Shown here in pieces: positions 44,914 through 60,545 of a stretch of 64,000 nt of DNA. A program made the translations under genes and the position numbers. Under the pieces are notes generated by a model that saw only the letters and a list, made by a program, of their open reading frames with translations, made no database searches and was not told the origin of the DNA. Within the stretch, counting starts at the first letter, position 1; each line of letters starts with the position of its first letter. Source of the stretch: Paenibacillus pasadenensis DSM 19293 (lineage in GTDB: Bacteria > Bacillota > Bacilli > Paenibacillales > Paenibacillaceae); the NCBI RefSeq assembly GCF_000422485.1, contig NZ_KE383849.1, positions 158,472 through 222,471 of the forward strand, written 5' to 3'.

Positions 44914-47900
44914 CTACAGCCCGAGACGATCCGCCAGATTGAGGATCGCTTGCGCGCTGTCCGCGCGGCTTGCGGAAGCCGCCGGCGCGAAGCTGCCGTC
45001 GGCGCGGCCTTTGAGCAGGCCGAGCGCCAGCGCGTCCTGCACGTCCTTGGCCGCCCATGCGGATACGCGGTCGAGATCGCGGACAGCAGCCGCTTGAGCG
45101 GCAGCTGCGGCATCCGCCGCTTGCGCGCGGTAGGCACGGACCAGCATCAGCGCCATCTCCTCGCGGGTAATCGCCGCGTGCGGCTGGAACGTTCCGTCTC
45201 CTTTGCCGGTGACGATGCCGTGATGGCGAGCCGCCTCGACGGCGGAGGCGTACCAGGCGCCGGACGGAACGTCGTTGAACGCGCTGCCCGCTGCCGGCGC
45301 GTCCAGTCGGAGCGCTCTCGCCAGCATCGCGGCGAACTCGGCGCGGGTGACGGCTTTGGCCGGCGTGAACGTCGTGGAGCTCGTGCCGGCGACGATCTGC
45401 TTCGCCGACAGCCGCTTCACGGCCGCTTCGGCCCAGTGGCCGGACAGATCGGCGAACGTCTTGTCGACTTCAAGCGCCGCATAGCGGCTGAAGTGGCTTA
45501 CGCTGGCCGTCAGACGTCCATCCGCCAGCTTGCCGCCGACGTATTCCGGCTGCTCGCCGGACAGGTAGTAGATGCCGGCCAGCTGCAAGCTCACGCCGGA
45601 GTCCAGCGCGAACGTCAGCTGGACCGGAGCTTCGAAGCGATCAAGCGAGTAGGCTTGGCCTGCCTTCGTCACGACGGCGAGGCTCAGCTCCACCAGCTTG
45701 CTGCCGAGCTTGACTTCGGCATCCAGCTTCGTCGCCGCTTGATCCGCGGCCGCTACGGCTGCCGCTGCATCCAGCTCGGCGGCCTGGAAGCGGAGGTACG
45801 CGCCTTCCGACTCGCCTGCCGGCATCAGCTTGGCGAGCTGCGCCAGCAGAGCTGACGGCAGCTGCACCGTCAGTCCCTCGCGCTTCAGCTCCAGCGGCTT
45901 CGAGCCCAGAATCGTGCTCGCGTCAAGCGGCAGGCGGACTTCCGCGATCCCAGCTTCAAGCGTGATGGAAGCCGAGGCTTTGAGCGCATCCGCGGTCAGC
46001 TCGACCACGTTCTCCGGCTTGGCAGGAGAGGAGCTCGGCGCCGGAGTCGGAGTGACCGGCGACGGTGTCGACGGGTTCTCCGGCGTCGGCGACGGGTTCT
46101 CCGGCGTCGGCGACGGGTTCTCCGGTGTCGGCGTCGGGTTCTCCGGTGTCGGCGTCGGGGTTGCCGGCGTCGGCGTCGGGTTCTCCGGCGTCGGCGTCGG
46201 GTTTGCCGGCGTCGGCGTCGGGGTTGCCGGCGTCGGCGTCGGGGTTGCCGGTGTCGGCGTCGGATTCTCCGGCGTCGGCGTCGGGGTTGCCGGCGTCGGC
46301 GTCGGGGTTGCCGGTGTCGGCGTCGGGGTTGCCGGTGTCGGCGTCGGGGTTGCCGGCGTCGGCGTCGGATTCTCCGGCGTCGGCGTCGTTTTCACGCTCG
46401 CCAGCACGACCGTGCCGCCATCCGCCATCGCTGGCAGCGAGAACGTCACCTTGCCGCCTTCAGAGACCGCGTAGGTCTTGCCGCCGTACAGATCCTTCAC
46501 GCTGCTGCCTGCCGCGAACGGCACGGCCAGCGTCACTTCCTGCGCGGCGGTCTTGACGCCGAGCGCCGTCACGAGCTGCTCGCCTTCATAGCGGTTGAGG
46601 AAGGCCATGTAGCCTTTCTCATTGGAAGCCTCCAGGCTGACCCGCTCGCCTTTAGCGTACACTTTCGAATAGTCGGCGCGGATGCCGAGCAGCTTTTGGT
46701 AATGCGCCAGCAGCTTGGACTCGGACTCCAGCTTGTCCCACGGCATGTCGCCGCGGTTCTCGCTGAACTCGCCCTTGCCCATGTCGCGGGCGTTCTTGCC
46801 GGAGCGGCCGAGCTCCTCGCCATAGTAGACGACCGGCTGGCCCTTGGCCGTAATCTGCATGGCCGCGGCAGCCATCAGCTTGGCCTTGTCGCCGCCGACA
46901 TACTCGCTCAGGAAGCCGTCCTCGTCATGGCTGCTCAGGAACTGCCCCATGACGCGCGTATTGTCCAGCTTGGCGGCGCGCTCCGTCAGATAAGCGTCTG
47001 CCGCCTCTACGTTGCCTTCGACAAAGGCCTTGGCCTGGCCCTTGAACCCGAAGTCGAGCAGGCTGTCCATCTGGCCGCTCTGCAGCGTGCCGCCGTCGCT
47101 GTCGACGGTCGCGCCGAAGTATTCGCCGATCAGCTTGAAGTTCGGATCGATGCGCGTCAGCTCGTTCTTGAACGCTTTCCACGTCGTGTCCTCGACATGC
47201 TTGACCGTATCGACGCGGAAGTAGTCGATCGTATCGCCGCGATCGCTCTTCGCGCGCTCCAGCCAGTCGGTCTGCCAGCGGATGACCTGGCTGCGGACAT
47301 CCGGATTTTCCGTCAAGAAGTCCGGCAAGCCGGCCAGCTCGCCCTTGATCGCATCCGTATCGGCGGAGAGGCCGTCCGTGCGAAGCATGCCCGCGAAGCG
47401 ATCCTTGTCTGCCTGCGTCACGCCAGGGTACTGATCTCCGGGCTTCATGCCGTAGCCCGTATGGTTGAGCACGACGTCGACCATGATCTTGATGCCGCGG
47501 TCATGAGCCTCGTCGATGAGCTGCTTGAACGTGTCCAGATCGCCGAGATGCTCGTCGAGCTTGGCGAAGTCCTTGGCCCAGTAGCCATGGTAGCCGTACT
47601 GCTCGCCGCCGAAGTCGGTGCCTTTGTTGAAGTCGATGTTGTCCACGATCGGGGTGATCCACAGCGTATTGACGCCAAGATCCTCGATGTAGTCGAGCTT
47701 GTCGATCAATCCCTGGAAGTCGCCACCATGATACGCCTCCAGATGGTTCTTGTTCACGTTGAAGTTATTCGTCTCGTCGCCGTCCGCGAAGCGGTCGGTC
47801 AGCACGAAGTAGATGCGGGACTCGTCGAAGTCGAAGTCCAGCTTGCCGCCGGCCGTGCTCTTCGCTTGCACCGTCAGCTCGGCGCTGCCATGGTGGCGGT

Positions 47901-50900
47901 TGCCGTACGAATCGACGAGCGTAATCGGGATTGTCTTCTCTCCCGCAGGCACCGAGTCCTTGACGGCGACCGTCTGCTGCATGAGCTCCGTGTCCAGCTT
48001 CACCTTGGCCGGTCCGCCAAGCGCCGTCAGATCCAGATAAGCTTCCTTGAATGCAACTTCTTCGGAAGCTTCCGCTTCCACTTCCAGCACGGCGTGCTGG
48101 CCTGCAGCGATCGCTGCCGGGGATGCCGATGCGGAGATGGCTACATCCGGCCTTACATAAGTGACGGTCGACTTTCCATCCACCGTGTTTTTCGGATCGG
48201 TGATCTCGGCCGTCTGGCCGTTCTTCGTCACCGCGAACGAATACTCATGCGTGCCCGGCTCGATGCCGCTCAGCACGTAGCGGAACAGCTCCTGCTCCGG
48301 CACATACGCCATCGCATGCTCCTGTCCGCCGATGAGGAGCTTCACGCCCTCGATCTCATTCATGCGGTTCGTGCGGAACAGCGCATCGTCCCGATAGCGG
48401 AACGTGATCGTTCCGTCGTCGAGCGTCGGACCGGTCAGGCTCGGCTTGATGTCGAGCTCGCGGACCATGCTCGTCACGTTGACCTTCGTAAAGGCCTCGC
48501 CCGGAACGAGCGGGATGATGCGGTCATCCGGAATATCCTGCTTCGCCGTATTCCAATCGGTGCCTTTGCGAAGCACGAAGCCGACGCTGGTCGCTTGCGG
48601 CGCGACCTCGATGAGCACCGAAGCGATGCCGTTGTCGAACGTCTGGAAATCGATTTGGTCGTTCTTGACACCCGTATTCCATACCCACATATTCCAGTCC
48701 TTGTAGCTCTTGTCCGGACGGATATAGTTGACCTGCACGTAGCGCTTCTCCGTCGGAGGAGCCGTCTTGCCCTCCGTGCGGATGATGACCGCGGTCAGCG
48801 GCTGCAGCGTGATCGAGCCGGACTCGAGCGAGAAGCCGCTCGGAGCGGATACGCCCGCCGCCAACGCTTCGTCGTCGTCCGCGACGACCAGACCGCCGGT
48901 CAGGTCTTCGGAGAGCGTCAGCTTCCGGGACTTGCTGTCGGCGTTGACGAACACATAGAAGTCGTCCTTGCCGTCGGAGGACTGGCTCTTGTACGCGATG
49001 ACCAGATCCTGCGCGTTCACTTCCGGAACCTGGAGCAGCGTCACGTTGCGATCCACCAGGGCCTTGTCGCCGAGGCGGAACGCGTCGCTCGACTGGCGCA
49101 GATCGATGAGGCCTTTCGTATACTCGACGGTCTTGACGTTCTCGCCGTAGACGTTCGCATCCGTTGTCTTCGCCCAGTCGAACTTGTTGATCGCGTCGGA
49201 GGAGTCATAGGAGTCATGGACGAAATAGCCGAACGTAACGCCTTTTTCATCCTTGAGCTCATGGTACTTCTGCTCCGGCACCCCTTCGCCGAGCCACTGC
49301 TTCGTGCGGCCGTATTCCTGACCGGCATGCAGGAACGCAGTCCCTTGAGACGTGAGTGTCAGCAGGTTGCCGAGACGGACGCGCTTCAGAATTTCCTCAT
49401 TGTTCTCGGGAACGGAAGGATCCTTCTTGATCGCCTGCGCCACGATGTCGTACAGCGGCAGGTTGTCATGCGCCTCGACGTACTGCACCATGTCGCCGGG
49501 ATCGTCCTGCTTCGTATTGCCGGCCTGAGCCTTGATATTGTTGAAAATGACGCTGATGTCCCGCGCCCCGCCCGTGATGAAGCGCGGCTCGCCTTCGCTT
49601 CCGAAGCCGGACTTCAGTTCATTGCGGAACTCGTCGGAGAAGACGCCGACATCGTCGGTCTTGTCCATCCAGTCCTGATCGGCGCCGTGGCCCGCCAGGT
49701 AAGGATCTGCCTGATGGCCGGCGAACGTGCGCCAGCCTTCGCCGATGAACAGCGCCTGCGGGTTGATCGCCGCGGCCGCGTCGTAAGCGTTCTGGATCGA
49801 CTCATAGGTCGCGTCGCCCATCATGTCGAAGCGCATGCCGTCGATCTTGTATTCATCGAACCAATATTTCACCGAGTCGACCATGAGCTTCTCGGCCATC
49901 TTGCGATTCGTCGCCAGGTTGTTGCCGAACCCGCCGAGGAAGTTGCCGTTCGGTCCTTGGAACGCATAGTAGTTCGGAACGATGTCGTTCAGGAAGTCCG
50001 CCTTGGCCATATGCGTGTAGACGACGTCCAGGATGACGCCCATGCCGGCGTCGTGGATCGAGTCGATCATCGCCTTCAGCTCGCGGACGCGCAGCTCCGG
50101 ATCGGCCGGATTCTCGGAGTAGGCTCCGTCCGGAGAGAAGTAGCTGTGCGGATCATAGCCCCAGTTGTACTCATTGTTCATCGCCGAGTAGGCGAGCTCG
50201 CGCTCCTTCATCGCCGCCTCGTCGCCGTAGTACCAGGCCATCACCGGCAGCAGCTGCACATGGGTCACGCCGAGCGACTTGATGTAGTCGACCTTCTGCT
50301 TGAAGGCGTCGAACGTGCCCCAGGTCGCTTCGTGGAGGTCGCTCTCGACCGACGGATCGGACGTGAAGTCGCGGACGTGGATCTCCCAGATGACCGCGTC
50401 CTCTCGCTTCTCGTAGCCGTCGATGTCGGCGAAGCCGTAGCCTTCCGGATCGGTGCCGGCCAGATCGACGATCGCCGCCTTGCCGACCGCGTCGCCGTCC
50501 GCTCCCGTCTCGCCCTTCGTATTGACGTGGAACTCGGCCATCGACTTGGCGTACGGGTCGAGCACGCGCTTCGTCACGCCGCCGTTGGTCACTTCATATT
50601 GGTAGAAATAGTTCTTGAAATCCGTCACGCCGAAATCGTTCGGCTGGAGCTGGATCGACCAGACGCCTCGCTCGCCTTGGGCAAGCGGCCGGGAGCCGAC
50701 CTTGACGGTCGCGTCGTCCTTGTCGTAGACGTTGACCGTGACGCTCGACGCCTTTGGCGCCCACAGCTTGAGCGTCGCTCCGCCGGCGGCATACGTCGCG
50801 CCGAGATCGCTGCCGTCGTAGGCGTACAGCTCGTCCATCATGCGCCAGCCGGCAGCGGCGGCGACGGTCTTGCCCTCGTAGGTCAGCTGCAGCGGCGCTT

Positions 50901-51933
50901 GGGCGTCGGAGAAATCCGCCTGGATGCGGATCGACGTCGCGCTGTCGATCTCGACGGAAGCGATCGAAAGCTGCGCTCCGCTCTTGTCCTTGAGCTGCAG
51001 CGCCTCCTTGAGCGCCGCCGTATCCAGACCTGTCGTCAGCGTGAAGTCCGCATGAATGCGGCCTCCGGCCAGCAGCTGAGCGGACAGGAGCGCAGGCGCT
51101 CCTTCGTTCACCGGCAGCTCGCCGAACGGAGAGATATACACCTTGTCGTCGCCCTGCTTCACGAACAGATGCTTGTAGCTGCTCACGTAGGCGAACTTCT
51201 TGTCGCCGCCGTCCTTGCCGGCGTCGCCCTTGGATGGATCAAGCAGCAGGAAGCCGATTTCCTGGGCGTTTTCCTTGAGCTTCAGATCTACGAATCCGCC
51301 ATAGGCGTCCTCGCCGGAGAACATCGCCGCATCGGTCGGCCATGTGGACGGAGGAGCCGCGACCTCTCCCCACGACCATACGCCGTATTTGGCATGCTCG
51401 CCATCGGAGCGCTGATAATGCACGCGCACCGTATCGGCCGGCAGCTCGACCGGCTCGAAGCTATGTACCGCATCTGAGCCTTGCTTCAGCCACACCTCGT
51501 TCATCGCCGGCGAGGCCAGCGAGAACTTCTTGTCGCCGGCGTCCTTGTCGCCGTTGGCCGGCTTCATGACGACGAGGCCGACGTTCTTGGCGTCCGCCTT
51601 CAGCGGAATATCGACGTACGCTCCGTATCCGTCGGCCTGTCCGGCCGGGAAAGGCGTGCCGCCGTTCGGCCAGTTCGAAGACGGCTGGGCGACGTCCTCG
51701 AATTGCCATAGCCCCCAGCCCTCATAGTTGCCGTCCGTACGTTGGTAATGGACGCGCAGATGGCCATCCGCCACCGGCGGCGCCGTTTCCGCCTGCACGG
51801 CTGCGTTTTCGCCAGCCGCCGCGTCCGCGTTCGCCTGCACGGGCAAAGCCCCGGCGAACAGCGACAGCAGCAGCGCGAAAATGGCGGTGATGGAAGCGAA
51901 ACGCTTCGTCGTAGCGCTCATGATCATGTTCAA
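44914..51933 (-). CDS. Surface amylopullulanase with two GH13 domains and SLH anchor
   Basis: 2339 residues. Order: signal peptide (about 1-35), two CBM41-like modules (55-265), CBM48-like (375-470), type I pullulanase GH13 (505-950) with D703 in MRFDMMGD, E732 in GEGW and D823 in EAHDN, a third CBM41-like module (about 1050-1130), linker domains, a second alpha-amylase GH13 (about 1365-1830) with D1575, E1604 and D1670, a Pro/Thr linker (about 1848-1965), a beta-rich domain and three SLH modules (about 2160-2339). It would cut alpha-1,6 and alpha-1,4 bonds of starch or pullulan at the cell wall. TTG 51933 and ATG 51927 are both possible starts after GGAGGG; numbering uses the former. MalR/CcpA-like operators lie upstream. 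Confidence 0.93.
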   Translation of the reverse strand: MNMIMSATTKRFASITAIFALLLSLFAGALPVQANADAAAGENAAVQAETAPPVADGHLRVHYQRTDGNYEGWGLWQFEDVAQPSSNWPNGGTPFPAGQADGYGAYVDIPLKADAKNVGLVVMKPANGDKDAGDKKFSLASPAMNEVWLKQGSDAVHSFEPVELPADTVRVHYQRSDGEHAKYGVWSWGEVAAPPSTWPTDAAMFSGEDAYGGFVDLKLKENAQEIGFLLLDPSKGDAGKDGGDKKFAYVSSYKHLFVKQGDDKVYISPFGELPVNEGAPALLSAQLLAGGRIHADFTLTTGLDTAALKEALQLKDKSGAQLSIASVEIDSATSIRIQADFSDAQAPLQLTYEGKTVAAAAGWRMMDELYAYDGSDLGATYAAGGATLKLWAPKASSVTVNVYDKDDATVKVGSRPLAQGERGVWSIQLQPNDFGVTDFKNYFYQYEVTNGGVTKRVLDPYAKSMAEFHVNTKGETGADGDAVGKAAIVDLAGTDPEGYGFADIDGYEKREDAVIWEIHVRDFTSDPSVESDLHEATWGTFDAFKQKVDYIKSLGVTHVQLLPVMAWYYGDEAAMKERELAYSAMNNEYNWGYDPHSYFSPDGAYSENPADPELRVRELKAMIDSIHDAGMGVILDVVYTHMAKADFLNDIVPNYYAFQGPNGNFLGGFGNNLATNRKMAEKLMVDSVKYWFDEYKIDGMRFDMMGDATYESIQNAYDAAAAINPQALFIGEGWRTFAGHQADPYLAGHGADQDWMDKTDDVGVFSDEFRNELKSGFGSEGEPRFITGGARDISVIFNNIKAQAGNTKQDDPGDMVQYVEAHDNLPLYDIVAQAIKKDPSVPENNEEILKRVRLGNLLTLTSQGTAFLHAGQEYGRTKQWLGEGVPEQKYHELKDEKGVTFGYFVHDSYDSSDAINKFDWAKTTDANVYGENVKTVEYTKGLIDLRQSSDAFRLGDKALVDRNVTLLQVPEVNAQDLVIAYKSQSSDGKDDFYVFVNADSKSRKLTLSEDLTGGLVVADDDEALAAGVSAPSGFSLESGSITLQPLTAVIIRTEGKTAPPTEKRYVQVNYIRPDKSYKDWNMWVWNTGVKNDQIDFQTFDNGIASVLIEVAPQATSVGFVLRKGTDWNTAKQDIPDDRIIPLVPGEAFTKVNVTSMVRELDIKPSLTGPTLDDGTITFRYRDDALFRTNRMNEIEGVKLLIGGQEHAMAYVPEQELFRYVLSGIEPGTHEYSFAVTKNGQTAEITDPKNTVDGKSTVTYVRPDVAISASASPAAIAAGQHAVLEVEAEASEEVAFKEAYLDLTALGGPAKVKLDTELMQQTVAVKDSVPAGEKTIPITLVDSYGNRHHGSAELTVQAKSTAGGKLDFDFDESRIYFVLTDRFADGDETNNFNVNKNHLEAYHGGDFQGLIDKLDYIEDLGVNTLWITPIVDNIDFNKGTDFGGEQYGYHGYWAKDFAKLDEHLGDLDTFKQLIDEAHDRGIKIMVDVVLNHTGYGMKPGDQYPGVTQADKDRFAGMLRTDGLSADTDAIKGELAGLPDFLTENPDVRSQVIRWQTDWLERAKSDRGDTIDYFRVDTVKHVEDTTWKAFKNELTRIDPNFKLIGEYFGATVDSDGGTLQSGQMDSLLDFGFKGQAKAFVEGNVEAADAYLTERAAKLDNTRVMGQFLSSHDEDGFLSEYVGGDKAKLMAAAAMQITAKGQPVVYYGEELGRSGKNARDMGKGEFSENRGDMPWDKLESESKLLAHYQKLLGIRADYSKVYAKGERVSLEASNEKGYMAFLNRYEGEQLVTALGVKTAAQEVTLAVPFAAGSSVKDLYGGKTYAVSEGGKVTFSLPAMADGGTVVLASVKTTPTPENPTPTPATPTPTPATPTPTPATPTPTPATPTPTPENPTPTPATPTPTPATPTPTPANPTPTPENPTPTPATPTPTPENPTPTPENPSPTPENPSPTPENPSTPSPVTPTPAPSSSPAKPENVVELTADALKASASITLEAGIAEVRLPLDASTILGSKPLELKREGLTVQLPSALLAQLAKLMPAGESEGAYLRFQAAELDAAAAVAAADQAATKLDAEVKLGSKLVELSLAVVTKAGQAYSLDRFEAPVQLTFALDSGVSLQLAGIYYLSGEQPEYVGGKLADGRLTASVSHFSRYAALEVDKTFADLSGHWAEAAVKRLSAKQIVAGTSSTTFTPAKAVTRAEFAAMLARALRLDAPAAGSAFNDVPSGAWYASAVEAARHHGIVTGKGDGTFQPHAAITREEMALMLVRAYRAQAADAAAAAQAAAVRDLDRVSAWAAKDVQDALALGLLKGRADGSFAPAASASRADSAQAILNLADRLGL
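46040..46393 (-). repeat. Pro/Thr linker-encoding tandem repeats in amylopullulanase
   Basis: Roughly 18-base units encoding TPTPA(T/N)P or TPTPENP, about 20 copies with small variants, some SPTPENP at the 3' side of the protein order. Extended, probably glycosylated linker between the catalytic and SLH parts. Such repeats often vary in copy number between strains. Confidence 0.9.
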
Positions 51934-52706: not shown

Positions 52707-53672
52707 TCAATCCAGCCCCACCCCAAGCCCCTCCGCCAGCGCGCGGCGGTAGAAATCCCCCGCCAGCGCCAGGTCGAAGATGCCGAGCCCCATCGGATTA
52801 AAAAAGATCGTCTCGCCCGCGAGCGGAGCCAGCGCGTCGCGGCAGACGGCGTCCGCCAGCGTCAGCGCGTCCGGCTCCGCCAGCAGCCCCGCCGCGTGCA
52901 GCCGCTCGATGTCCGTATCCTCGCGGCATACCTGGCTCCAGTCGTCGACGAACGTGCGCAGGCCGGCGACGCTGTGCGGCTCGTAGTCCCGCAGCGACAC
53001 ATGCAGCAGCAGCGCTCCCTGCGGCGGCGGCTCGTCGATGTAGCGGCTCGGCGCGACCGTGCAGGTCGCGGTCACGTCCGACTGCCGGTACAGCTCCCGC
53101 CAGTCCGTCGTCGCCTCGACGCGGCCGAGCAGCTCCGGCGGGATGCTGTCCTCCGCGATGCCGCGCACGTCATGCAGCAGCACCCGCTCCAGGCGCGGCC
53201 CGAGCAGCGCCGCCGCCATGTCGAGATGCAGGCGGCCGATCGGCCCCCAGCCGATGATGCCGACCGTGAAGCCGCCCCCGGACGCCGGACGCAGCTCGGC
53301 GTACCAGCGCAGCATGGCGCCGCTGACCGCCGCCGCGCGCAGTCCGTTCAGCCGATCGCTGCGCAGCACGGCGAGCGGCTCGCCCGTCGACGGATCGTTC
53401 AGCGCGATCAGGTTGCGGGCGCGCGGCAGCCCGCGCTGCGGGTTGCCGGGAAATCCGGCGATCCACTTGATGCCGGCCAGCTCCGTGCTTCCGCCGAGAT
53501 AGGCCGGAGTCGCGATGATCCGGTTCGGCGTGCCGGGAAAGCGCAGATAGCCTTTGAGCGGAGCGGCGCTACCGCCCGCGTCCATCGTGCGCACCGCTTC
53601 CTCGATGAGATCCGCCAAGCGGCTCCAGTCCCAGCCGAGCTCGCGGATATGCTCGTCGTTCAAGTAAAGCAT
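52707..53672 (-). CDS. sbnB: SbnB-like N-(2-amino-2-carboxyethyl)-glutamate dehydrogenase
   Basis: 321 residues, ornithine-cyclodeaminase/mu-crystallin family. LAGIKWIAGFPGN carries the conserved lysine; FTVGIIGWGPIGRLHLDM is the Rossmann NAD site; DPSTGEPLAVLRSDRLNGLRAAAVSG is typical. In staphyloferrin B biosynthesis SbnB oxidatively splits the SbnA product into L-2,3-diaminopropionate and 2-oxoglutarate. ATG 53672 has AGAGGAGGAG. Follows sbnA by 88 bases, same strand. Family members also include plain ornithine cyclodeaminases; the SbnA partner decides the call. Confidence 0.88.
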   Translation of the reverse strand: MLYLNDEHIRELGWDWSRLADLIEEAVRTMDAGGSAAPLKGYLRFPGTPNRIIATPAYLGGSTELAGIKWIAGFPGNPQRGLPRARNLIALNDPSTGEPLAVLRSDRLNGLRAAAVSGAMLRWYAELRPASGGGFTVGIIGWGPIGRLHLDMAAALLGPRLERVLLHDVRGIAEDSIPPELLGRVEATTDWRELYRQSDVTATCTVAPSRYIDEPPPQGALLLHVSLRDYEPHSVAGLRTFVDDWSQVCREDTDIERLHAAGLLAEPDALTLADAVCRDALAPLAGETIFFNPMGLGIFDLALAGDFYRRALAEGLGVGLD

Positions 53673-53760
53673 CGCTTCTCCTCCTCTTTCCTGCGCTTCC
53701 TGGCCTTTTCCCCGACCGTCGTCTCGCTGCTGCCCGTCTCGCTGCCGCTCAAACGCTCCG

Positions 53761-54753
53761 TCACGGCGCGGCGGCCAGCTCCTCGTCCGGTCCAAGGCCG
53801 AGCTCGCGGCTCGCCCATCCGGCGTCGAACGCCGTATCGAGATAGCGGTCGCCCCGGTCCGGCAGGATCGCCGCCACGACCGCTCCGGCAGGCAGGCTGC
53901 CGGCCATCCGCTTGATCGCGGCGACGACGCCGCCCGAGGAAGCTCCGGCGAGGATCGCCTCGCGCCGCAGCAGGCTGCGGCAGCCGCGCACGCAATCGGC
54001 GTCGCTGACGCGGACGACCTCGTCGGCCAAGTCCGCGCGATGCAGCCCCGGCTCCAGCGCCGCCCCGAGGCCGGGAAAGCGGCGAACGCCGCTGCCCCCG
54101 CCGAACAGCGCGCTCCCCTGGGCGTCGACCGCGACGATCCGGGTCGGCCAGCCGCGGCCGCGGATGTAGTCGGAGCAGCCCCGGATCGTGCCGCAGGAGC
54201 TGACGCCGCAGAACAGCCAGTCGACCGTGCCGAGCTTCTCGGCGATCTCGGCCATCGTCGTGGCTTCATGCGCGGCGGCGTTGTCCGGGTTGGCGTACTG
54301 GTTCGTCCAGTACGCCCCGGCAATCGACGCCCGCAGCTGCCGCACGCGGGCGATGCGCGCCGGCAGGAACTCGCCGGTCGCCGGATCGGGCCGGCTCACC
54401 AGCTCGATCTCTCCGCCGTAAGCGGAGATGAGCGCCTTATGCGCCTCGGTCGTGCGCGGATCGACGACGCAGACGAAGCGCAGGCCCGCCTGCCGGCATA
54501 GCTGGGCGAGGCTGATCGCCAGATTGCCGGAGCTGGACTCGACGACCGTGCCGCCGGCGGCCAGCTCTCCGCGCCGGATCGCCTCCTTCAGCATATGGAG
54601 CGCGGCCCGGTCCTTGGCGCTCCCGCCCGGATTCATCCCTTCGAGCTTGGCATGGACCTCGAACGCCTCCCCCTCGAACAGCCGCGAGAGCCGCACGAGC
54701 GGCGTCCGCCCGATCGCCGACGCGATGCCTCCATTCAGATCCGGTTCCCGCAT
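53761..54753 (-). CDS. sbnA: SbnA-like 2,3-diaminopropionate biosynthesis enzyme
   Basis: 330 residues, fold-type II PLP enzyme. PLP lysine K47 in MNPGGSAKDR; phosphate/substrate loop VVESSSGNLA; GVSSCGTIRG. SbnA joins O-phosphoserine and glutamate to N-(2-amino-2-carboxyethyl)-glutamate. The SSSGN loop and GGSAKDR favour SbnA over cysteine synthase. A GTG at 54756 is also possible; ATG 54753 overlaps the upstream stop as TGATG and lies 8 bases from GGAGAG. Middle gene of a three-gene operon. Confidence 0.9.
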   Translation of the reverse strand: MREPDLNGGIASAIGRTPLVRLSRLFEGEAFEVHAKLEGMNPGGSAKDRAALHMLKEAIRRGELAAGGTVVESSSGNLAISLAQLCRQAGLRFVCVVDPRTTEAHKALISAYGGEIELVSRPDPATGEFLPARIARVRQLRASIAGAYWTNQYANPDNAAAHEATTMAEIAEKLGTVDWLFCGVSSCGTIRGCSDYIRGRGWPTRIVAVDAQGSALFGGGSGVRRFPGLGAALEPGLHRADLADEVVRVSDADCVRGCRSLLRREAILAGASSGGVVAAIKRMAGSLPAGAVVAAILPDRGDRYLDTAFDAGWASRELGLGPDEELAAAP

Positions 54754-56222
54754 CACGGCGTCTCTCCTTCTCCGTAAAAGATCTTCTTGCGCTTGATCGG
54801 CCCTTCGGCCGCCTCGTCCCCGAGCCGCACCCGCCGCACCGCGATGTCCTCCAGCAAGCCGCTGCGGATCATCTCCCCGATCGCCGGGATGCGCGCCTCC
54901 ACGTCCCGCCCCGCCAGCTCGAACTCCTCGTCCGAGGCGGACGGACTGTCGATGCCGATCGCCAGCCGGTTGCCCCGCACCTCGACGCGCAGCCGCGCGT
55001 CCGGCAGCCGGCGGCTGACCGCGTCCTCGATGTCATAGAGGCTGATCTTCTCGCCATGCTTGAGGTCGGGCCCGATGCGCTTGACGAGTCCGGCGAAGCT
55101 TTGGCGCAGCCGGCCGCCTGCGACGATCGGCCGCAGGTCGCGCACGACGTCATAGGTGACATATCGAAGCGCCGGGAACGCTTCGCGCAGCGCGGAGGTG
55201 AGCACGAGCACCGCCTCGCCCTCCGGCAGCGGCTCCAGCCCGTCGCCGAGCGCTTCCGCCGGCACGCCCTCCGCAAGCAGCCCGTCAGCCAGCAAATAGC
55301 GGCCATGCTCCGGGGAGTAGGAGGCGATCGTGCCGATCTCGATGGAGCCGTACGTATCCGCGATGTCGAGCTCGGTCAAGCCGAGCCGAGCCGCTGCCGC
55401 GCGCCGCCATCCCGGCGAGGCCAGCTCGCCGACGAGCAGCACGCGCCGGATGCCGAGCTCCGCCGGCCGCGCCGCCGCCGCCAGGATGCGGTCGAGAATC
55501 GACGGCATCGTGTAGAGCACCTCCGGCCGCAGCCGCTCGAGCGCGGCGACATGCTCGGCGATCGGCAGCCGGAACGGCAGCGTCTCCACGGACAAGCCGA
55601 GCTCGCGGAACACCTCGCCCGCCGTCGCCTCGGCATGGCCGGTGCCCATGTCGGAGACGGCTGTCCGCCACTCGCCGCCGGCCAGCAGCTCGCGGAACAC
55701 GTCGAGCTTGACGCGCAGGTAATCCGCCTCGTCCTGCGGCGAGTAGTAGATCGCCTTGCGCCGGCCGGAGCTCGTGCCGGACGTGCGGTACACGTTCAGG
55801 CCCGGCTGCGCGGCGAGCGGGTTGCCCTCGGCATAGTAGTGCCGCTCCAGCGCCGACGCCGTCAGCAGCGGCAACCCTTCCAGCAGCTGCAGCGCCGCGG
55901 CCAGACCGTCGCCGGAATCAGCCTTATCCGGCCTTCCATCGCCGGCTTCGTCCTCGGCATCCGCGGCCCCAGCCAGACCGTCGCCGAAATCAGCCTCATC
56001 CGGACTTCCGCCGCCGGCTTCGTCCTTGGCATCCGCGGCCCCCGCCAGACCGCCGCCGAACTCGGCCTCATCCGGCCTTCCGCCGCCGGCTCCTTCCGCT
56101 GCCCCGGCCGCCGCATCCGCTCTGCCCGCCGCTCCCTCGACGGCTGCCCCTGCCAGCCCATCGATCCACGGAAAGCTCCGGCGCAGCCGTCCGATCGCCG
56201 CGCTCCACTCCGCTGTCCGCAT
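54753..56222 (-). CDS. Adenylate-forming enzyme, PaaK / CoF-synthetase-like
   Basis: 489 residues. Adenylation motifs: YRTSGTSSGRRKAIYY (P-loop-like), IADTYGSIEIG, YVTYDVVRDL and a C-terminal lid. Most like phenylacetate-CoA ligase / coenzyme F390 synthetase relatives, which activate a carboxylate as the acyl-AMP. Substrate unknown; adjacency to sbnA/sbnB suggests it activates an acid to be joined to diaminopropionate, or activates Dap itself. Residues about 41-112 are a tandem acidic Ala/Gly/Asp repeat with no counterpart in the family. RBS GAGGAGGG. First gene of the operon. Confidence 0.8.
   Translation of the reverse strand: MRTAEWSAAIGRLRRSFPWIDGLAGAAVEGAAGRADAAAGAAEGAGGGRPDEAEFGGGLAGAADAKDEAGGGSPDEADFGDGLAGAADAEDEAGDGRPDKADSGDGLAAALQLLEGLPLLTASALERHYYAEGNPLAAQPGLNVYRTSGTSSGRRKAIYYSPQDEADYLRVKLDVFRELLAGGEWRTAVSDMGTGHAEATAGEVFRELGLSVETLPFRLPIAEHVAALERLRPEVLYTMPSILDRILAAAARPAELGIRRVLLVGELASPGWRRAAAARLGLTELDIADTYGSIEIGTIASYSPEHGRYLLADGLLAEGVPAEALGDGLEPLPEGEAVLVLTSALREAFPALRYVTYDVVRDLRPIVAGGRLRQSFAGLVKRIGPDLKHGEKISLYDIEDAVSRRLPDARLRVEVRGNRLAIGIDSPSASDEEFELAGRDVEARIPAIGEMIRSGLLEDIAVRRVRLGDEAAEGPIKRKKIFYGEGETP
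55893..56100 (-). repeat. 72-bp tandem repeat inside the adenylate-forming gene
   Basis: GCCGGCTTCGTCC-type units start at 55941, 56013 and 56085, period 72 bases, in frame. Encodes about 24-residue units of the form AGGGxPDEADFGDGLAGAADAxDE. Three copies, the outer two diverged. Confidence 0.85.
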
Positions 56223-56441
56223 CGCTTCGCCCTCCTCTAGTCGGCGGAGTCGATTCCGCCCATCGCACTACCGTATGCCCATGACGCCTGTCAGGTTCGT
56301 GCGTATGTGCCCGCAACGCCGCCGCCAACGGCAAATGGGGCTCTACGAGCTCCACGGTCACGATCCTTCCCCGCGCGCCCAGTCGCCCGCCGCCAATTGC
56401 CCATACACTGGAACCAATCCCTAGCGAGAGGAGCCAGCGGC

Positions 56442-57245
56442 ATGTCTAGCGGCGAAGGCGGCGACGCCACCCGGCGATCCGTCGCCAGCAAGATGGAAAA
56501 GACGCAGCGGCTGCTTCAGCATCCGCAGCTGGCCAAGTCCGTGCCCGCGACGCGCTGGCTGAACGAGGAGTCGCTCGCCGAGCTGCTCCGCAAGCACCGC
56601 ATGGTCTACGTGAAGCCCGACGTCGGCCGGATGGGCATCGGCGTCATGCGCGTCGAGCGGACCGGCAGCGGCTGGGCTTACCAGAGCGGAGAGAAGGTGC
56701 GGCGCTTCGCGACGCGCAGCGGGCTGTACCGCTCGCTCGCCAAGCGCATCGGCGATACGCCCTATCTGGTGCAGAGGGGCATCCGCATGCTGGAGCACGA
56801 AGGACGTCCGTTCGATTTTCGCCTCATGATCCAGCAGGACCGGTCGGGGGCATGGGCATGCAACGGCACCGCGGCGCGCGTCGCCCATCCCGCCAAGATC
56901 GTCAGCAACGGCAGCCAGGGCGGCACGATCTTCGAGCCGATGCGTCTGCTCGCGCCCGCCTTCGGCCAGACGGAGGCCGAGGCGCTGCTGCGCCGCATGG
57001 ACCGGATCGCGCTGCAGACGGCGGGCGAGCTCGGCCGGTCGTACCCGGCGCTGCGCGAGCTCGGCCTCGACCTGGCGGTCGATACGAGCGGCAAGCCGTG
57101 GATTCTCGAGGTGAACACGCGGCCCGATCCATGCCCGTTCACCAAGCTCGACGATCCGGCGATCATCCGGCGCATCGTCGAGTACGGCAAAGGCTACGGA
57201 CGGCATTACAAGCTGATCTGCAACAAAGCGAAAAAAGCGCCCTGA
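56442..57245 (+). CDS. YheC/YheD family ATP-grasp protein
   Basis: 267 residues, ATP-grasp fold: MVYVKPDVGRMGIGVMRV, YLVQRGIRML, PFDFRLMIQQD, and C-terminal LDLAVDTSGKPWILEVNTRPDP with metal-binding acids. YheC/YheD are spore-coat-associated in Bacillus; the ligase substrate is unknown. ATG 56442 has AGAGGAG. Divergent from the adenylate-forming/Dap operon. CATACACT (56402-56409) upstream resembles a sigma-K -10. Confidence 0.87.
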   Translation: MSSGEGGDATRRSVASKMEKTQRLLQHPQLAKSVPATRWLNEESLAELLRKHRMVYVKPDVGRMGIGVMRVERTGSGWAYQSGEKVRRFATRSGLYRSLAKRIGDTPYLVQRGIRMLEHEGRPFDFRLMIQQDRSGAWACNGTAARVAHPAKIVSNGSQGGTIFEPMRLLAPAFGQTEAEALLRRMDRIALQTAGELGRSYPALRELGLDLAVDTSGKPWILEVNTRPDPCPFTKLDDPAIIRRIVEYGKGYGRHYKLICNKAKKAP

Positions 57246-57258
57246 AGGGGCGCTTTTC
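57231..57258. terminator. Terminator between convergent genes
   Basis: AAAAAAGCGCCC-TGAA-GGGGCGCTTTT; the 5' arm overlaps the end of the YheC/D coding region. Serves it and the convergent ABC operon. Confidence 0.85.
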
Positions 57259-57281: not shown

Positions 57282-58136
57282 TCACTTGATGCCGGAAATA
57301 TTGTAGTTCTCGATGATCTGCCGCTGGAAGAAGATGAAGATGACCATGATCGGCAGCACCATGAACGCCGCGCCGGCCATCTGCAGGGCGAAGTTGGTCG
57401 TGTTCTGCCCTTTGAGCAGCTGCAGGCCGACCGAGAGCGTGTACAGCTTCTCGTCGTTGGCGATGATGAGCGGCCACAGGAAGCTGTTCCAGCCGCCGAT
57501 GAACGTCAGGATCGCCTGCACGGCGAGGATCGGCTTGGACATCGGCAGCACGACCTGCGCGAACAGCCGGTACTCGCTCGCGCCGTCGAGCCGCGTCGCC
57601 TCCATGATCTCCTCCGGCAGCGTGCTCATGAACTGGCGGAACAGGAAGATGCCGAAGGCGCTCGTGAAGCCGGGCAGCACGATGCCGAGCATCGTATTGG
57701 TCAGGCTGACGCCGTTCAGGATGAGGTAGACCGGGATCATCGTCACCTGGCCGGGGATCATCATCGTGGCGAGCACGAGCAGGAACAGCTTTTCCCGCCC
57801 CTTGAACCGGTACTTGGCGAAGCCGAATCCCGCCATCGCGTTCAGCAGAAGGCCGACGAACGAGAACAGCGTGATGAGCAGCGTGTTGCCCAAGTACGTG
57901 CCGAAGTCCATCTCCGTGAACAGCCGGGTGAAATTGTCCACGGTGAACGCCTCCGGCCACAGCGTCGGCGGGATGCGCTTGATCTCGCCTTCGGTCTTGA
58001 AGGCGGACAGCACCATCCAGACGAACGGCAGCACCATGGCGATGCCGAATACGGTCAGCACGATGCCCGCGGCCCATTGCTGGAGCCGGCCTCTCGGAGC
58101 GGCCGAGGCGGGCTTTCGAGTCGTCGCTTGTTTCAT
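57282..58136 (-). CDS. Carbohydrate ABC transporter permease
   Basis: 284 residues, six helices, EAA loop PEEIMEATRLDGASEYRLFAQVVLPMSKP. Last gene of the binding protein-permease-permease operon. Start at 58136 with GAGGAGG. In Listeria, a similar transporter adjoins the 1,2-beta-oligoglucan phosphorylase gene; here the same layout is divergent. Confidence 0.92.
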   Translation of the reverse strand: MKQATTRKPASAAPRGRLQQWAAGIVLTVFGIAMVLPFVWMVLSAFKTEGEIKRIPPTLWPEAFTVDNFTRLFTEMDFGTYLGNTLLITLFSFVGLLLNAMAGFGFAKYRFKGREKLFLLVLATMMIPGQVTMIPVYLILNGVSLTNTMLGIVLPGFTSAFGIFLFRQFMSTLPEEIMEATRLDGASEYRLFAQVVLPMSKPILAVQAILTFIGGWNSFLWPLIIANDEKLYTLSVGLQLLKGQNTTNFALQMAGAAFMVLPIMVIFIFFQRQIIENYNISGIK

Positions 58137-58148
58137 GAGAGCCTCCTC

Positions 58149-59033
58149 CTATTCCTCGGCTTGCTTCCGCTGCAGGCGCAGCTGGACCATCGTGACGGCG
58201 ATGATGAGGAAGAACAGCACGAACGAGCCGGCGGCCGCATAGCCGAAGTGGCTGTACTGGAAGCCGTTCTGGTAGATGAACAGCGACGCCGAGACGGTGC
58301 CGTTCAGCGGTCCGCCCTGCGTCATGACGAAGGGCTCCTCGAAAAACTGCAGCCAGCCGATCATCGTCGTGATCGTCACGAAGAAGATCGCGAAGCGCAT
58401 CATCGGCAGCGTGATCCGCGTCAGCTGCTGCCAGCCGCTCGCCCCGTCAAGCTGCGCCGCCTCGTAATAAGAGCGGTCGATGCCCTGCAGCGCGGCGATG
58501 AAGATGATCATGTTCAGTCCGATGCTCCGCCACAGCGCCAGCAGGATGAGCGACAGCTTGGCGATCGTCGGCTCCGTCAGCCACGGCACCTTGTCGAAGC
58601 CGATCGACGTCAGGATGTAGTTGAACAGCCCGATGCCCGGGTTGTACAGATAGCTCCAGACGACGGCCACGGCGACGACGTTCGTCACCGACGGCAAGTA
58701 GTAGACGACGCGGAACACCTTGAACAGCCGCGAGCGGCCGAATTGGATGAGCAGCGCCACGCCGAGCGAGCAGGCGATGACGAGCGGCACGCCGATGACG
58801 ACGTAGAACAGCGTGTTGCGCAGCGCCAGCAGGAATACCGGATCGCCCAGCACGTCGGCATAGTTGGCCAGGCCGACGAAGGAGATGGACGAATAGTCGG
58901 CCAGCCCGGCGAGGTCCATGTCGGTCAGGCTGATGCCCAGCGCGACGAGGATCGGCAGCAGCGAGAACACCGCCAGCAGCAGCAGCGTCGGTCCGATGAA
59001 CACATACGGCGCCATTTTGGAGGAACCCTTCAT
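58149..59033 (-). CDS. Carbohydrate ABC transporter permease
   Basis: 294 residues, six helices, EAA loop DRSYYEAAQLDGASGWQQLTRITLPM. GGAAGTGAG upstream of the ATG. Middle gene of the transporter operon; 12 bases from the next permease. Confidence 0.92.
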   Translation of the reverse strand: MKGSSKMAPYVFIGPTLLLLAVFSLLPILVALGISLTDMDLAGLADYSSISFVGLANYADVLGDPVFLLALRNTLFYVVIGVPLVIACSLGVALLIQFGRSRLFKVFRVVYYLPSVTNVVAVAVVWSYLYNPGIGLFNYILTSIGFDKVPWLTEPTIAKLSLILLALWRSIGLNMIIFIAALQGIDRSYYEAAQLDGASGWQQLTRITLPMMRFAIFFVTITTMIGWLQFFEEPFVMTQGGPLNGTVSASLFIYQNGFQYSHFGYAAAGSFVLFFLIIAVTMVQLRLQRKQAEE

Positions 59034-59132
59034 ACACTCACTTCCTTTGCAAGTCGTGGCCGCTCCGAACGGCAGGCGGAAGCCGGCGGCGGGCTGCTCC
59101 CGTCCTCCGGCCGCCGCCGCGGCCTCGTTCGT

Positions 59133-60374
59133 TTACTTGTCGAGCAGCTTCTGCGACTGCTCGTTGAAGTCCTTCAGCTTGGCGTCGATGTCCGCGTCCG
59201 CGCGGTAGATCTCCTCGAACGTCTTGAGGAAGTTCTGGGAGATGTTGTCCCACGCCTTGACGAGCGGCATCGGCTCGGCATTTTTCAGCTGCTCGCCGAC
59301 GACGGCCATGTTCGGATCGCCGCTCAGCTGCGGGTCCTCCCACGCCTTCTTGTTCGCCGGTAGCTCGCCGGTCTGCTTCATCCACTCCAGCTGGTTCTCC
59401 GGCTTGCTGAGGAACGCAATGAACTTCATCGCGGCCGCCTTCTGCTCGGTGAAGCCGAATACGCTCAGGTTGGAGCCGCCGAGCGAGCTCATGTTGCCGT
59501 CCTTGGACGGCAGCACCGCCGTCGCCCACTTGCCCTCGATGTCGGGGATCTGGTCCGCGACCGTCTTGATCATCCACGGGCCGCTGATGAACATCGGCAC
59601 CATGCCGTCGCCGCCGAACGTCTGGGACGTATCGAGGCCGAGATCGACCGGCGCGTAGCCGTTTTTGAAATACCCGTCCAGGTAGCGGACCGTCTCCGCG
59701 AATGCCGGCTGATCGAACTGGGCCTTGCCGTCCTCGATCAGCTTGGAGCCGTTCTGGCGGGCGAACATGAAGCTGAGCGTCGGCTCCTTGGGATCGAGGC
59801 CGATGCCGTATTTGTCCTTGCCCCGCTCGGTCAGCTTCTTCGAAGCGTCGAGCAGCTCATCCCAGGTTTTCGGCGCATGATCGTAGCCGACCGACTGCAG
59901 CACGTCCGTGCGGTAGAACAGGACGCGCGTCTCCGCCAGCCACGGCACGCCGACCGTCTTGCCGTCGAACTGCGTGGACGTGACCGTGCCGTCGAAGAAA
60001 TTGTCCGCGGCCAGCTCCGGGTAGTCGGCCAGGTCGGCGGTCAGGTCGGCCAGCGCGCCGGCCGCCGCGAACTCCGGCATCCACGTCGTGCCCATCTGCA
60101 GCACGTCCGGACCTTTTTTGGAGGCGACGGCCGTCAGCAGCTTGTCATGCGCGCTGCCCCACGGAATCGCCTGCACCTGGATCGAGACGTCCGGGTTCTC
60201 CTTCTGGTACGCGGCCGCCATCTGCTCCATCGGCTTGCTGCTGTCTCCCATCGCCCATACGGTGAGCTTCGTCTTGCCTTCCTCTGCGCCGCTTCCGCCA
60301 GACGAGCAGCCTGCGATCAGGCTGCCTGCCAGCGCGGCGGCAGCCAGCGCCGCGATCGTTCTTTTCGTATCCAT
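59133..60374 (-). CDS. Sugar-binding lipoprotein (probable sophoro-oligosaccharide binder)
   Basis: 413 residues. Lipobox LIAGCSSG near 24. Family 1 binding protein: LTVWAMGDSSKPMEQMAAAYQ, FMFARQNGSKLIEDG, FISGPWMIKTVADQ. ATG 60374 has GGGGAGG; longer frames upstream lack an RBS. A TTGAAT-17-TATACT promoter and an operator lie immediately upstream. By context with the divergent GH94 phosphorylase it probably binds beta-1,2-glucooligosaccharides. Confidence 0.88.
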   Translation of the reverse strand: MDTKRTIAALAAAALAGSLIAGCSSGGSGAEEGKTKLTVWAMGDSSKPMEQMAAAYQKENPDVSIQVQAIPWGSAHDKLLTAVASKKGPDVLQMGTTWMPEFAAAGALADLTADLADYPELAADNFFDGTVTSTQFDGKTVGVPWLAETRVLFYRTDVLQSVGYDHAPKTWDELLDASKKLTERGKDKYGIGLDPKEPTLSFMFARQNGSKLIEDGKAQFDQPAFAETVRYLDGYFKNGYAPVDLGLDTSQTFGGDGMVPMFISGPWMIKTVADQIPDIEGKWATAVLPSKDGNMSSLGGSNLSVFGFTEQKAAAMKFIAFLSKPENQLEWMKQTGELPANKKAWEDPQLSGDPNMAVVGEQLKNAEPMPLVKAWDNISQNFLKTFEEIYRADADIDAKLKDFNEQSQKLLDK

Positions 60375-60417
60375 TCGCCATATCCTCCCCTGGATTCCGG
60401 TTGCTTTTCGTTTAAAG

Positions 60418-60463
60418 CGAAACGTTTCGAACAAAGTATAAATCAAATTGAAATCGCATTCAA
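60418..60463 (-). promoter_or_regulatory. Promoter and operator of the ABC operon
   Basis: On the minus strand TTGAAT (60463-60458), 17 bases, TATACT (60440-60435), then CGAAACGTTTCG (60429-60418) immediately after the expected start point. LacI-family-type palindrome, same core as at 60591. Confidence 0.75.
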
Positions 60464-60545
60464 GTCCTCTTTTCCAATCATTTTTCGCTTCATTAATAGC
60501 CAGGAAGTCGATACGCTCGTTCGACGCCATGGCCCGGAGCGCCGT

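Follow-up and report, generated by a model that had tools for sequence, protein, structure and literature searches.

We identified, in a 64,000-nucleotide window (the whole stretch of DNA analysed, part of a 5.7-Mb genome), a conserved four-gene cluster that we modestly favour as a sporulation-stage pathway to amides of L-2,3-diaminopropionate (Dap), dapdiamide-like and equipped with a different ATP-grasp ligase. Computation yielded the conserved unit, the family assignments of its products, the conservation of their active sites, a fusion of the adenylating ligase with SbnA and the promoter type, and from these we infer the reactions, the acid, the substrate of the YheC/D-family enzyme and the destination and role of the product.

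Under the proposed scheme, sigma-K RNA polymerase in the mother cell would transcribe both arms of the cluster late in sporulation. SbnA would join O-phosphoserine and glutamate, and SbnB would oxidise and split the SbnA product, yielding Dap. The DdaG-family enzyme would adenylate a small carboxylic acid, with a fumarate-like dicarboxylate as the best guess, and form an amide on a Dap amine, while the YheC/D ATP-grasp enzyme would make a second amide bond via an acyl phosphate, with an amino acid, a peptide or a spore protein as the partner. Such a product might be kept in the mother cell, placed on the spore surface or freed by mother-cell lysis, so that no exporter would be needed. As a tentative extension, which we hold with clearly less confidence, the pathway may belong to the late spore programme of the Paenibacillales, with the YheC/D enzyme either loading a Dap conjugate on the spore or building a spore-borne metabolite. 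If this is true, the spore ATP-grasp proteins of the orphan YheC/YheD family would be ligases that form amide or peptide bonds in building the chemistry of the spore surface.

Table. Coordinates of the cluster genes and associated sequence features.
Feature	Position	Strand	Family or basis
Window	contig C4:158472-222471		
SbnB-like NAD-dependent dehydrogenase/hydrolase, predicted second step of Dap synthesis	52707..53672	-	TIGR03944
SbnA-like PLP enzyme, predicted first step of Dap synthesis	53761..54756	-	TIGR03945
DdaG-family adenylate-forming amide ligase, predicted acid-to-Dap coupling	54753..56222	-	NF041596
YheC/D-family ATP-grasp ligase, predicted second amide bond	56442..57245	+	PF14398
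Sigma-K-type operon promoter, GAACC-N16-CATACGGTA	56269..56298 (-35, 56294-56298; -10, 56269-56277)	-	sequence pattern
CATACACTG, possible -10 of the ATP-grasp gene	56402..56410	+	read from sequence
Terminator-like hairpin, 3' end of the ATP-grasp gene	57232..57258		11-pair stem

Family matches located all four genes where the initial annotation had placed them, with the ATP-grasp protein encoded opposite the other three, as had been described. The genes for SbnB, SbnA and the adenylating enzyme constitute one operon, divergent from the YheC/D ATP-grasp gene. The description of this operon as overlapping holds at the junction of the SbnA and adenylating-enzyme genes, which share 4 nt, but not for the SbnB gene, which is separated from that of SbnA by 88 nt. 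The ATP-grasp gene most likely starts at the ATG at 56442, which follows a predicted GAGGAG ribosome-binding site, rather than at the GTG at 56307. The hairpin beyond its 3' end, with a T-rich tail after the stem on the minus strand and a stem visible on the plus strand too, separates it from convergent ABC transporter genes. The cluster is flanked on this side by a sugar ABC transporter (57282-60530) and on the other by a gene for an amylopullulanase-like protein of 2339 aa with a long Pro-Thr-rich linker (44914-51933).

The four genes are not scattered in related genomes, but remain neighbours in almost every one of about 100 loci. Clustering of the open reading frames of 99 loci and the window found only these four genes to be generally shared, in keeping with the minimal pathway first proposed; the flanking amylopullulanase-like gene and sugar ABC transporter are not generally kept with them, and the conserved unit contains no transporter, NRPS, NIS or regulator gene. 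The claim that no NRPS, NIS synthetase or transporter adjoins the cluster holds for the conserved unit; in the window, its neighbours are the two flanking features named above. Strong homologues of the adenylating enzyme occur in approximately 127 of the 297 whole genomes of the family (142 matches, 15 of them weak generic AMP-ligase matches), in 82 of 248 genomes in the order sample and, in the class sample, in four genomes outside the order; the phylum sample contained none outside the family. Holders of the cluster belong to Paenibacillus, Cohnella and related families. The adenylating-enzyme scan returned 72 loci from named genomes, all Paenibacillus or Cohnella except two labelled Bacillus sp., and essentially all present the ATP-grasp gene on the minus strand followed by DdaG, SbnA and SbnB genes on the plus strand, although related genomes and loci in these counts are not independent samples. 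The closest named relatives of the adenylating enzyme, at 66-69% identity, are found in Paenibacillus humicus, P. pasadenensis and P. herberti, and the arrangement recurs across species at DdaG identities down to 44-50%, which argues against a chance association.

Some departures from this arrangement are informative. In seven genomes, belonging to one genus of the family (g13) and, in one case, to another family of the order, DdaG and SbnA are encoded as a single polypeptide of ~730-940 aa (loci L110-L112, L133-L136, L139 and L157), a fusion that supports the Dap-amide pathway. On the other hand, three loci (L046, L083 and L151) showed no SbnB gene beside the cluster. Two genomes (G770 and G778) carry a DdaG-YheC pair without adjacent SbnA and SbnB and encode SbnA elsewhere, and a further genome (G561), in which the DdaG match ends 45 positions before the profile end, has no SbnA above the cut-off.

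The assignment of SbnA and SbnB to Dap synthesis, already made in the initial annotation, is supported by family matches and by invariant active-site residues, although a family name does not by itself establish activity. The SbnA-like protein scores 405 bits against TIGR03945, above the curated family cut-off of 350, and S. aureus SbnA (5d84) is the solved structure nearest to it. In a column-wise alignment, each of the 93 homologues has the same residue as the S. aureus enzyme at Lys47 (the PLP lysine), Arg132, Tyr152 and Ser185. Tyr152 is the residue mutated to Phe in PDB entry 5d86; the strict NQ[YF][AD]N motif around it matches 26 of 95 sequences, with the variation confined to the neighbour of Tyr152. 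For the SbnB-like protein, TIGR03944 is the best family (277 bits, E 1.6e-82), and all 88 homologues carry the conserved Lys, Arg and Asp unchanged. Its score falls short of the cut-off of 327 and, as with that of the DdaG-family enzyme, this shortfall from the equivalog level weighs against the pathway.

The best family of the adenylating enzyme is DdaG (NF041596; 240 bits, E 5.5e-71, against 29 for the next family), the fumarate--(S)-2,3-diaminopropanoate ligase of dapdiamide biosynthesis, which uses Dap itself. All 26 aligned homologues match NF041596, and the protein shares 37% identity and the DxGTGHA, GSIEIG and KHGEKI motifs with Pantoea DdaG. Since it scores below the equivalog cut-off of 700 bits, fumarate cannot be claimed as its substrate, and its pocket was matched to no particular acid. 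By structure comparison, the AlphaFold model (pLDDT 80, with low values in a lineage-specific repeat) shows the PaaK-type AMP-ligase fold shared with phenylacetate-CoA ligases. The earlier label of PaaK/CoF-synthetase-like understates the relationship with DdaG, which is far closer than PaaK-type ligases, to which sequence similarity is weak (best E 2.5e-7). Near the N-terminus of the protein, a low-complexity stretch is encoded by a 72-bp in-frame tandem repeat of 2.7 copies (55900-56091), which is missing from most homologues.

The relationship with DdaG also admits a more specific version of the product's role, based on the same chemistry, in which the mother cell would make a diffusible dapdiamide-like antibiotic, such as an N-beta-fumaroyl-Dap peptide inhibiting glucosamine-6-phosphate synthase, that protects the surroundings of the spore. 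Dap-based glutamine analogues are known to inhibit GlmS (PMC3535389; FMDP literature), and release by lysis would stand in for an exporter. The conserved unit, however, lacks the fumarate amidase (DdaH), an epoxidase, the NRPS components (DdaC and DdaD) and a resistance gene, no relation between its ATP-grasp enzyme and DdaF is detectable and the ligase scores below the DdaG equivalog level; we consider an antibiotic unlikely.

The ATP-grasp protein belongs to PF14398 (201 bits, E 3e-59; gathering cut-off 26.8), and ATP-grasp motifs are retained in 88-98 of its 98 homologues. Its structural model (pLDDT 92) most resembles tubulin tyrosine ligase and the TTLL enzymes, with a TM of approximately 0.5. 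An origin as a DdaF homologue was rejected, as no relation to the dapdiamide enzyme could be detected. The same genome encodes 11 YheC/D proteins; outside the window, it harbors an array of five tandem YheC/D ATP-grasp domains (G000:C4:94785-101389; L196-L199 and L203) and five further scattered copies. The size of this family and the opposite orientation of the gene could indicate that the ATP-grasp gene adjoins a pathway to which it does not belong, one comprising only Dap synthesis and acylation. We regard this as improbable: the gene is adjacent in nearly all loci and still adjoins DdaG in three genomes where SbnA and SbnB do not (L144-L146), in two loci (L143 and L156) it shares the strand of sbnA/sbnB and diverges from DdaG, and the cluster copies group apart, with modest support, from the paralogues of the window's genome. 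The first two of these observations also favour the Dap-amide pathway with the ATP-grasp enzyme as a member.

To characterise regulation of the cluster, we analysed the divergent intergenic regions after trimming the coding ends, because a strongly conserved CCWTGGTA motif before the DdaG gene, rejected as a regulatory element, corresponds to Pro-Trp-Tyr codons of the DdaG N-terminus; expectations were derived from GC-matched windows of the same loci. On the DdaG side, 40 of the 94 regions contain the pattern AC-N15-18-CATAnnnTA, where 0.44 are expected, in agreement with shuffled controls, and CATAnnnT occurs in 88 of them, where 13.2 are expected. The usual form is GAAC-N16/17-(G/A)CATA(T/G)GnT(A), located ~50 bp upstream of the gene. 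The window contains a single sigma-K-type match (0.03 expected), 47 bp upstream of the operon. A genome-wide search returned six matches, against 11 for a reversed-pattern control, and the weight of the CATACGGTA site therefore lies in its position and conservation. Another of the six genome matches (L165 1501-1529, minus strand) lies upstream of a cell-wall hydrolase gene of PF07486, a family with spore-germination enzymes among its members.

As a positive control, we searched upstream of dpaA, the dipicolinate synthase gene, which is sigma-K-dependent in B. subtilis; 28 of 30 genomes from the same family carry [AC]AC-N15-18-CATAnnnT[AG] there, where 0.4 are expected. The dpaA promoters (L166-L195) also present a conserved TGGGC/TAGGC between the -35 and -10 elements, possibly a regulator site. 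The layout of the operon promoter agrees with the published sigma-K consensus (AC, ~16 nt, CATAnnnTA; PMC517825). Judged by consensus, conservation and correspondence with a known regulon member, the operon is apparently under sigma-K-type, late mother-cell promoters, and the putative spore link, previously drawn from the ATP-grasp family only, gains support from these promoters and from the dpaA control.

Regulation of the other arm is less clear-cut. On the ATP-grasp side, 16-21 of 94 regions match the sigma-K-type pattern strictly, and the CATACACTG element in the window's genome has a poor -35, so that the promoter on this side is weak here. In addition, B. subtilis yheC and yheD are mother-cell sporulation genes under sigma-E and SpoIIID, not sigma-K (PMC517825). 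Both observations count against the pathway as proposed. Sigma-A, sigma-G, sigma-F and full sigma-E patterns are not enriched in the divergent regions, while on the ATP-grasp side the loose sigma-E -10 alone is raised (21 against 8), as are, slightly, SpoIIID-like sites (10 against 3), and GerE-like sites are raised on the DdaG side (33 against 11.5). A small Dap-based metallophore, siderophore- or zincophore-like, is suggested by SbnA and SbnB, best known from staphyloferrin B (PMC3179956), but we reject this reading as highly improbable, given that Fur and Zur boxes are absent from 96 promoter regions and the window, that NIS, NRPS and transporter genes are absent from the conserved unit, and that a true siderophore-type sbnAB operon in genome G310 looks different.

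That operon (L213 2048-10882) is staphyloferrin-B-like, with a Fur-like box and with three IucA/IucC synthetases and an MFS transporter after sbnAB, and in genome G778 one SbnA copy lies with SbnB inside an NRPS operon (L214 770-8066). The contrast between the separate siderophore-type operon and the Dap cluster indicates that SbnA/SbnB is a reusable cassette, for which the present cluster is a third setting. No description of the cluster, or of Dap synthesis in sporulation, was found in the literature searched, although such absence does not prove novelty. The Dap pathways known so far serve siderophores and antibiotics; the wide conservation of this Dap-amide unit and its sigma-K-type promoters point to a spore molecule yet to be described. 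For the uncharacterised YheC/D family of spore ATP-grasp proteins, the cluster provides a metabolic partner and hence a testable substrate, a first biochemical handle.

Among known systems, the closest is the dapdiamide/APV pathway (dda, apv) of Pantoea, exemplified by plasmid pPag2 of P. vagans C9-1, which the initial annotation did not mention. Both systems combine SbnA, SbnB, a DdaG-family enzyme and an ATP-grasp ligase, and dapdiamide assembly likewise relies on a pair of free-standing amide ligases in place of a complete NRPS line (PMC12568646). The cluster differs in lacking DdaC, DdaD, DdaH and other dda genes in its conserved unit, in drawing its ATP-grasp enzyme from a family other than that of DdaF and in its sigma-K-type promoters. 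Its workings would be those of a trimmed dapdiamide pathway, but with its ligase below the DdaG equivalog level and counterparts of DdaF, DdaC, DdaD and DdaH missing, it is not filed as a dapdiamide cluster. The staphyloferrin B (sbn) operon shares the use of SbnA and SbnB to make a Dap building block, whereas the cluster has no NIS synthetases, transporter or Fur box. With B. subtilis yheC and yheD, finally, the cluster shares the PF14398 family of its ATP-grasp enzyme, but this copy is tied to a Dap pathway and appears to be under sigma-K-type rather than sigma-E/SpoIIID control.
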